Below are positions 29,925-56,919 of a stretch of DNA of 64,000 nt, in pieces. Source of the DNA: Bacteroidia bacterium (lineage in GTDB: Bacteria > Bacteroidota > Ignavibacteria > SZUA-365); NCBI GenBank assembly GCA_027493955.1, contig JAOSJT010000001.1, positions 1 to 64,000 of the forward strand. Reading direction: 5' to 3'. Position 1 is the first letter of the stretch, and the number at the start of each line of letters is the position of its first letter. A program made the translations under genes and the position numbers. The notes beneath the pieces are model-generated. The model did not search any database. It saw only the letters and a program-made list of their open reading frames with translations, and had not been told where the DNA came from.

Positions 29925-29953
29925 TTGCTTTAAGAAAATCGCTTATGTATATT
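29925..29953 (+). promoter_or_regulatory. Sigma70-like promoter for candidate small RNA 1
   Basis: TTGCTT, exactly 17 bases, TATATT, 43 bases after the ruvA stop; no gene follows, only the hairpin at 29977-30021. Confidence 0.6.
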
Positions 29954-29959
29954 GTATCT

Positions 29960-30021
29960 GCATTCACTGTTTCCGTGAGCCGGCCCTAGTCACCTCCTCA
30001 GCTTTGGCCGGCTCTTTTTTT
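29960..30021 (+). ncRNA. Candidate small RNA 1 with anti-Shine-Dalgarno loop
   Basis: A transcript from the promoter at 29925-29953 would start near 29960 and end at a hairpin (GAGCCGGCC 29977-29985 / GGCCGGCTC 30006-30014) with seven T, giving about 60 bases. The loop is 20 bases, far longer than normal terminator loops, and shows TCACCTCCT at 29990-29998, the same nine bases as the 16S rRNA 3' end. It could pair with ribosome-binding sites. The plain alternative is a ruvA terminator with a chance promoter. Confidence 0.42.
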
Positions 30022-30390
30022 GTCCCGCCGTTCCAGTAATCATACAGTATAATATTTAGTACGCCATATTAATCCGCTTCGATCTCTCTGAAACGGCGCA
30101 ATGAGCATAGCGTTGAGGACAGCTCCTGACTTCGTCAGCGCGGCGCACTGGCACGGATGACCATATCGTTTGCTGGAAATAGCGAAGCCCCTGTCTCGAA
30201 TCGCCCCGGCATCATGATCTTCAGCACAACAAACTACAGGATTTCAGGCATCGCAGACTCTCTCTGCGTCTTTGCGCCGGGCCCGGAGCGTGGCTTCGCC
30301 GGGCCCTGAGCGAAGCCGATGGGACGCTCAGCCACGGTCGAAGGGTTGCGTCTTTGCGTTAATTCACCTTCCCAAGGTACAAAGCGGGCG
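30022..30390. other. Non-coding gap with a REP-like palindrome
   Basis: No credible gene. 30273-30345 holds G+C-rich imperfect palindromes built on CTGAGCGAAGCC and GGTCGAAGGG strings, similar to the one at 54912-54985 and to interspersed palindromes common in bacterial genomes. Confidence 0.45.
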
Positions 30391-55859: not shown

Positions 55860-56336
55860 TCAATGCAGGTGCTGCTCGATGGAAGAGAGAGTGAGCAATT
55901 CATTACCGCTCTGAATTTGCGCATTGAAGCAGCCGACTCTGCTGCACAGGCCGATACAGTTGCCGAAGTCCGCGTTTGCGGTCAGAAATATGGCGATGAG
56001 ATCGGCTTCACAGCCGCATTGCCCGAATACCGGAAGCGTAACACCGCACTCGGGGCAGAGCAGGGTGAATATATCACCTTTTTCGAGCCGTACGCCGAGA
56101 GAAATCCGTGATTTGTCCCCATAGACAGGGCTCAAGGCAACCAGCCCGTCCTCATGGTCTTTCCTGACCCGCAGGAAGATTCCGTTGAACTGGTTGAATT
56201 GCGCTCGTTCGTTGATCAGATTGTGCCCTTGCTGGCAGTAACATTCCTGTACGACCAGGACATGCTTGCTTTCGCGGTAATCGGCGGGGAGTGGCGTTGG
56301 AAAAATCATCATCCCCTTCTTGTCGAAGATGCTCAT
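55860..56336 (-). CDS. Cysteine-rich protein of unknown function
   Basis: 158 aa, GGAGG six bases before ATG. Cysteine pairs ECYCQQGHN, LCPECGVTLP, GQCGCEADLI and GNCIGLCSRVGCFNAQI (about 11 Cys) suggest zinc or Fe-S sites; LLCPECGVTLP looks like a zinc-ribbon knuckle. The rest carries no signal peptide or known domain. It is preceded on the same strand by the candidate RNA 2 unit, whose terminator ends about 70 bases upstream. Confidence 0.75.
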   Translation of the reverse strand: MSIFDKKGMMIFPTPLPADYRESKHVLVVQECYCQQGHNLINERAQFNQFNGIFLRVRKDHEDGLVALSPVYGDKSRISLGVRLEKGDIFTLLCPECGVTLPVFGQCGCEADLIAIFLTANADFGNCIGLCSRVGCFNAQIQSGNELLTLSSIEQHLH

Positions 56337-56405
56337 GGCGGCCTCCGTTCCGATGGTGAAAGTTGTCGCATAGGGAAACTAGCGCGGAGGGACGCCAATA
56401 GCAAA

Positions 56406-56459
56406 TAAAAAAAAGAAGGGCCGCCTGTTACACAGGCGACCCCTCAGGAGGAGGAGGGA
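56406..56459 (-). ncRNA. Candidate small RNA 2 with CCUCC-rich 5' end
   Basis: From the promoter at 56466-56494 an RNA starting near 56459 would begin CCCTCCTCCTCCTGAGGGG (within 56441-56458) and end at a strong hairpin, GGGTCGCCTGT / ACAGGCGGCCC (56418-56442), with a T-rich tail at 56406-56417. About 54 bases. The C-rich tract is complementary to GGAGG Shine-Dalgarno sites. Alternative: an attenuator leader for the cysteine-rich gene at 56336. Confidence 0.5.
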
Positions 56460-56465
56460 GGATTC

Positions 56466-56494
56466 AATATAGCCAATCCGTTGTCAGAATCCAA
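56466..56494 (-). promoter_or_regulatory. Sigma70-like promoter for candidate small RNA 2
   Basis: TTGGAT, exactly 17 bases, TATATT on the minus strand, followed within seven bases by the C-rich tract. Confidence 0.6.
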
Positions 56495-56607: not shown

Positions 56608-56919
56608 CTACTCGAACTCGATCAGCAGTTGATGTTTTTGGACACGATCGCCCTGCCGGACGAGAATCCGCTTGACGACGCCGTCACTGGGTGCCGAGAC
56701 GGAGTTTTTCATTTTCATGGCTTCAAGAATCAGAAGCGTGTCGCCCCATTTCACCCGCTGCCCCTGCGTCACGATGACGTCCACTACGACGCCGGGTATG
56801 AACGAAAGCAACTGCCTGGGATCCGGAACCACATAGGGCTTACGCCGCTCGAATTTCAGGGTATGCCGTGTTTCGTAGCGTGTGTCGTCTATTGTCAGTG
56901 TTTTCAGTTCGTCGCTCAT
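56608..56919 (-). CDS. Biotin carboxyl-carrier protein (carboxylase subunit)
   Basis: 103 aa. Biotinyl domain with the attachment motif LILEAMKMKNSV (Lys of M-K-M), followed by DGVVKRILVRQGDRVQKHQLLIEFE. It is the carrier subunit of the acyl-CoA carboxylase or decarboxylase encoded just upstream. Start ATG at 56919, three bases after the carboxyltransferase stop. Confidence 0.94.
   Translation of the reverse strand: MSDELKTLTIDDTRYETRHTLKFERRKPYVVPDPRQLLSFIPGVVVDVIVTQGQRVKWGDTLLILEAMKMKNSVSAPSDGVVKRILVRQGDRVQKHQLLIEFE

Follow-up and report, generated by a model that had tools for sequence, protein, structure and literature searches.

A predicted 55-nt small RNA with an anti-Shine-Dalgarno tract at its 5' end, conserved in a family of Ignavibacteria-like bacteria

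Organization of the locus

The 64,000-nucleotide stretch of DNA analyzed in this work (the window) carries on its minus strand, between an accB-like gene and a gene for a cysteine-rich protein, a compact unit composed of a promoter, a C-rich tract and an intrinsic terminator (Table 1). A previous sequence-only reading had proposed TTGGAT, 17 bases and TATATT followed by a C-tract and a terminator, and all of these are present on the minus strand; the spacer between TTGGAT (56494-56489) and TATATT (56471-56466) is indeed 17 bases long, and GAAT lies between TATATT and the tract. The stem, which that reading had described as 11 bp, is predicted to comprise 14 pairs closed by a 3-base loop (-26.5 kcal/mol, z -5.6 vs shuffles), while its T-tail and its RNA of about 54 bases agree with the T8 run and the transcript of about 55 nt (about 56461 to 56407) predicted here. 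The C-tract stays single-stranded in every predicted fold, leaving a C-rich, CCUCC-containing sequence exposed in front of the hairpin. The unit is probably transcribed as a short RNA, and there is very probably a genuine regulatory-RNA gene of about 55 bases at 56407-56463.

Table 1. Coordinates of the unit, of its neighbors and of the second C-rich unit in the window.
Feature	Position	Strand	Basis and remarks
-35-like element TTGGAT	56489..56494	(-)	sequence; TTGCTA at the same spacing in the relatives' ortholog
-10 element TATATT	56466..56471	(-)	sequence; TATATTTG in relatives, the TAnnTTTG form of the Bacteroidota -10 consensus (PMC7366714)
5' C-tract CCTCCCTCCTCCTCCT / CCUCCCUCCUCCUCCU, anti-SD-like putative seed with CCUCC	56446..56461	(-)	near-invariant CTCCCTCCCTCCCCCC in orthologs and paralogs
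terminator hairpin, 14 pairs	56415..56445	(-)	predicted fold; compensated pairs across genomes
T8 tail of terminator	56407..56414	(-)	sequence
predicted sRNA, about 55 nt	56407..56463	(-)	start inferred near 56463-56459
promoter-like site TTGCTA-N17-TAGTTT of the Cys-rich gene	56376..56404	(-)	sequence; separate from the sRNA
158-aa Cys-rich protein gene, downstream neighbor	55860..56336	(-)	no Pfam family; considered sRNA-independent
accB-like biotinyl carrier gene, upstream neighbor	56611..56919	(-)	Pfam PF00364; frozen synonymous sites
second conserved C-rich sRNA unit, other family	29925..30021	(+)	TTGCTT-N17-TATATT; 5' GCATTCACTGTTTCC; CACCTCCTC in terminator loop; downstream of ruvA

The downstream neighbor encodes a protein with CYCQQGH, CPECG and CGC motifs that is conserved in most of the family. 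Besides a free sRNA, the sequence-only reading had suggested that the unit might be an attenuator controlling this gene. The two do lie on the same strand, and of the eight genomes in which the gene was detected, seven have the unit directly upstream of it (in G003 the sRNA and the gene both end at contig edges). A role as leader or attenuator is nevertheless highly improbable: a separate promoter-like site adjoins the gene, promoter-like sites such as TTGACA-N17-TAAGTT precede it in relatives, and the interval between it and the sRNA ranges from about 100 to more than 300 bases. The gene was not detected in G006 or G007, both of which have the sRNA, copies of the unit elsewhere precede unrelated genes, and the predicted fold offers no competing antiterminator helix; the putative leader is not always accompanied by the gene. 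The Cys-rich gene was also considered as a partner of the sRNA and rejected, as it is missing near several copies.

Conservation and distribution

A nucleotide search of the relatives with the 161-base region returned no match except itself because the hairpin and the flanks differ between genomes; orthologs were located by synteny, with the Cys-rich protein gene and the biotinyl-protein gene (accB) as anchors. The unit lies directly behind accB in nine of the 11 other family genomes, in a layout of TTGCTA-N17-TATATTTGATCTCCCTCCCTCCCCCC-ATGGG-hairpin-CCCAT-T-tail with small changes among genomes, and is missing from this position in G001 and G004, and likewise in G012, which belongs to another family. 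The -35, the -10 and the C-tract (TATATTTGATCTCCCTCCCTCCCCCC) are near-invariant over several genera, being retained in 10 of the 12 family genomes (our own included, whose tract departs from that typical of the family), and TTG-N17-TATATT stands close before the RNA in 10 of the 12. Since the unit is conserved in other genera, we regard the observation as settled. Eight matching stretches occur in genome records labelled as Ignavibacteria or Bacteroidetes MAGs.

Across the family genomes the interior of the hairpin varies with compensated base pairs while the C-tract stays fixed, which points to selection on the structure of the terminator hairpin that ends, with its U-tail, the 56407-56463 RNA. 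This bears on the suggestion that the element acts at the DNA level, where its G-rich template strand (GGGGGGAGGGAGGGAG) would fold into a quadruplex or form a site of pausing as transcription begins. In relatives the strand opposite the tract does have runs of at least three G, but in our own genome most runs are of two, the covariation of the hairpin is that of an RNA, and every tract is part of the transcribed RNA, with the promoter before it and the terminator after it; this explanation is extremely unlikely.

In relatives the -35 of the sRNA lies inside the last codons of the upstream neighbor, accB; in our own genome some 110 bases separate the accB stop from the unit, which lies downstream of it and has a -35 of its own. 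Among the last nine codons of accB, four of the six that are invariant in amino acid are also invariant in codon, compared with one of 30 elsewhere (Fisher P=0.001); such frozen synonymous sites are expected if a promoter overlaps the coding sequence.

Outside the family, a pattern search of 391 genomes of the class gave scattered matches only, none with the GATCTCCCTCCC form, and a similar scatter was obtained with reversed-pattern controls. Beyond the family the covariance model likewise found weak matches only, mostly partial terminators, and at a permissive threshold no Rfam family came near its cut-off for this sRNA.

Extra copies and a second unit

Searching with the covariance model revealed four extra copies, three of them in G006 and the fourth in G011. 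These paralogs have a different promoter (TTGAC-N17-TACGTT) and different hairpins, with an A seven bases past the -10, directly or one base before the tract, and they keep an identical CCCTCCCTCCCCCC-ATGGG, including the AUGGG stem base. In G007 a second copy, with its own TTGCGC-N17-TATATT, lies 226 bases behind the first. A copy in G006 and that in G011 precede the same uncharacterised membrane-protein-like gene (L159 1497-2030 and L162 757-1272; MSESREGKEV.../MSEAREGKGV...), and that copy is therefore itself syntenic.

Two of the G006 copies sit between divergent genes and are therefore not terminators of an upstream gene. These copies weigh on the view that the unit does no more than terminate the accB operon, its promoter and C-tract being fortuitous. 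Its position directly behind accB in most genomes fits such a role, and the hairpin can also end accB transcripts; a terminator, however, needs neither a near-invariant -35 and -10 nor a near-invariant 16-nt C-tract, and the synonymous sites over the -35 are frozen. We consider it very improbable that the unit is an accB terminator alone.

A census of 2.264 Mb of our own genome (43% of it) for a promoter (TTG, a spacer of 16-18, TAnnnT) combined with a C-tract and a terminator identified exactly two loci, the unit described above and one at 29974 (+), while 16 third-order Markov genomes of equal size gave one match in total. The second locus, at 29925-30021, occurs throughout the family (12 of 12 genomes) and in two further genomes of the order; its promoter and 5' end are near-invariant. 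Both units have TTG-N17-TATATT, a short RNA, a CCUCC tract, a terminator and conservation in the family, and comparison confirmed that they share the same -10 and the same 17-base spacing, as the sequence-only reading had noted; they differ in the place of the tract, which is the loop of the terminator at 29925 and the exposed 5' end in the unit at 56407-56463. The second unit is a separate RNA family, more widely conserved than the first. Almost every copy has an unchanged, unpaired 5' GCATTCACTGTTTCC (29925-30023, (+)), possibly a second seed.

The earlier proposal that two such units in the window represent a recurring class holds in part: both are conserved and independent, and additional copies occur in relatives, although only two were found in 43% of our own genome. 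Taken together, the two units support a recurring class, if a small one. A further sRNA candidate, at about 123943 (-) of our own genome (locus L171), has TTGACA-N17-TATATT shortly before a terminator and no C-tract; GCACGTTCACTG in its 5' part bears a faint likeness to the 5' end of the 29925 unit.

Translation signals, Hfq and target searches

The 3' end of the organism's own 16S rRNA is GGATCACCTCCTTTCT, with the canonical CCTCC. A minority of genes (6.2%, vs 1.2% in a control stretch) is preceded by SD-like GGAGG, an enrichment of about fivefold before starts. Hfq (PF17209) was not found in the 12 family genomes and was detected in five genomes serving as positive controls; an Hfq-dependent sRNA would lack its partner protein in these genomes. 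The very probable sRNA gene has long been maintained in a single family of Ignavibacteria-like bacteria, in which Hfq, the usual helper protein, is missing.

Perfect GGGAGGGAG before ATG occurred 119 times in the 12 genomes as compared with 68 in a reversed control, a mild excess which yielded no coherent or sRNA-dependent set and no conserved target. The largest excess was in G004 (22 vs 3 in control), a genome without the sRNA behind accB, and is possibly due to relief from the sRNA or to chance. The best matches of a duplex-energy search in our own genome likewise formed no coherent set. One peptidase-like gene has a strong, conserved SD (GGGGAGGGA) that overlaps the end of the gene upstream; it was not taken as evidence.

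Discussion

The reading that we favor, and hold to be probable, is that the unit encodes a stand-alone, Hfq-independent, trans-acting sRNA of about 55 nt whose 5' anti-SD tract blocks the SD sequences of mRNAs. The free short sRNA with an anti-SD tract of the sequence-only reading is supported by conservation, covariation and paralogs. In the mechanism proposed, the promoter would start the RNA directly before the C-tract of about 16 nt and the terminator would end it at once, producing an exposed C-rich seed followed by a protective hairpin and a U-tail. We infer that the tract acts as a seed, its CCUCC core, shared with the 3' end of 16S rRNA, being able to pair with GGAGG/GGGAGG SD sequences or other G-rich leader sequences; such pairing would block binding of the 30S subunit and lower the translation of SD-dependent mRNAs without Hfq. 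A different use of the same tract would be as a decoy, the C-rich RNA titrating a protein that binds C-rich RNA or mimicking the 16S 3' end (for example by global competition for SD sequences, or for an initiation or ribosomal protein) and not regulating single mRNAs. That the tract copies the anti-SD core, that it is repetitive, of low complexity and not matched to one target, and that some genomes have several copies would all be consistent with a decoy; no binding partner is known, however, and a CCUCC decoy would need less than a specific, near-invariant 16-mer, which makes it unlikely.

Little is known, to our knowledge, of sRNAs outside the Proteobacteria and Firmicutes. Pairing of C-rich seeds with SD sequences is established for RoxS of B. 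subtilis (PMC8216469). Like RoxS/RsaE, FsrA and CsfG of the Firmicutes, short trans-acting sRNAs whose C-rich regions are directed at SDs or at G-rich sequences in leaders (PMC8216469), the predicted sRNA would act through a C-rich tract; it differs from them in belonging to another phylum, in having no Rfam match and in consisting of only one tract at the 5' extremity and a terminator, about 55 nt in all. In the alphaproteobacterial ar14/cuckoo RNAs (NfeR1, CcsR) CCUCCUCCC is constant while the stems diverge (PMC10746234, PMC3927594), a striking parallel to the constant anti-SD tract and diverging stem sequences seen here. Those RNAs, however, carry the motif in several hairpins, with CCUCCUCCC in each loop, whereas our sRNA has a single hairpin and one exposed 5' tract outside it; it scores 11.6 bits with the ar14 model against a cut-off of 58.8, and no DUF1127 gene, as is found at the CcsR locus, was seen beside the unit. 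In its probable mode of action it resembles both RoxS/FsrA and ar14/cuckoo, but it is a member of neither.

We tentatively propose, as a possibility that falls somewhat short of being probable, that this Ignavibacteria-like lineage without Hfq has a small class of sRNAs mimicking the anti-SD, with at least two unrelated families, one of them multicopy with two promoter types, which would, through their copy of the ribosomal anti-SD tract, regulate the SD-dependent genes collectively. As far as we know, Hfq is lacking in Bacteroidota-related bacteria, whose translation mostly does not depend on SD sequences. If true, a conserved minimal SD-directed sRNA in this branch would amount to a testable case of Hfq-free riboregulation of the minority of genes that use an SD.
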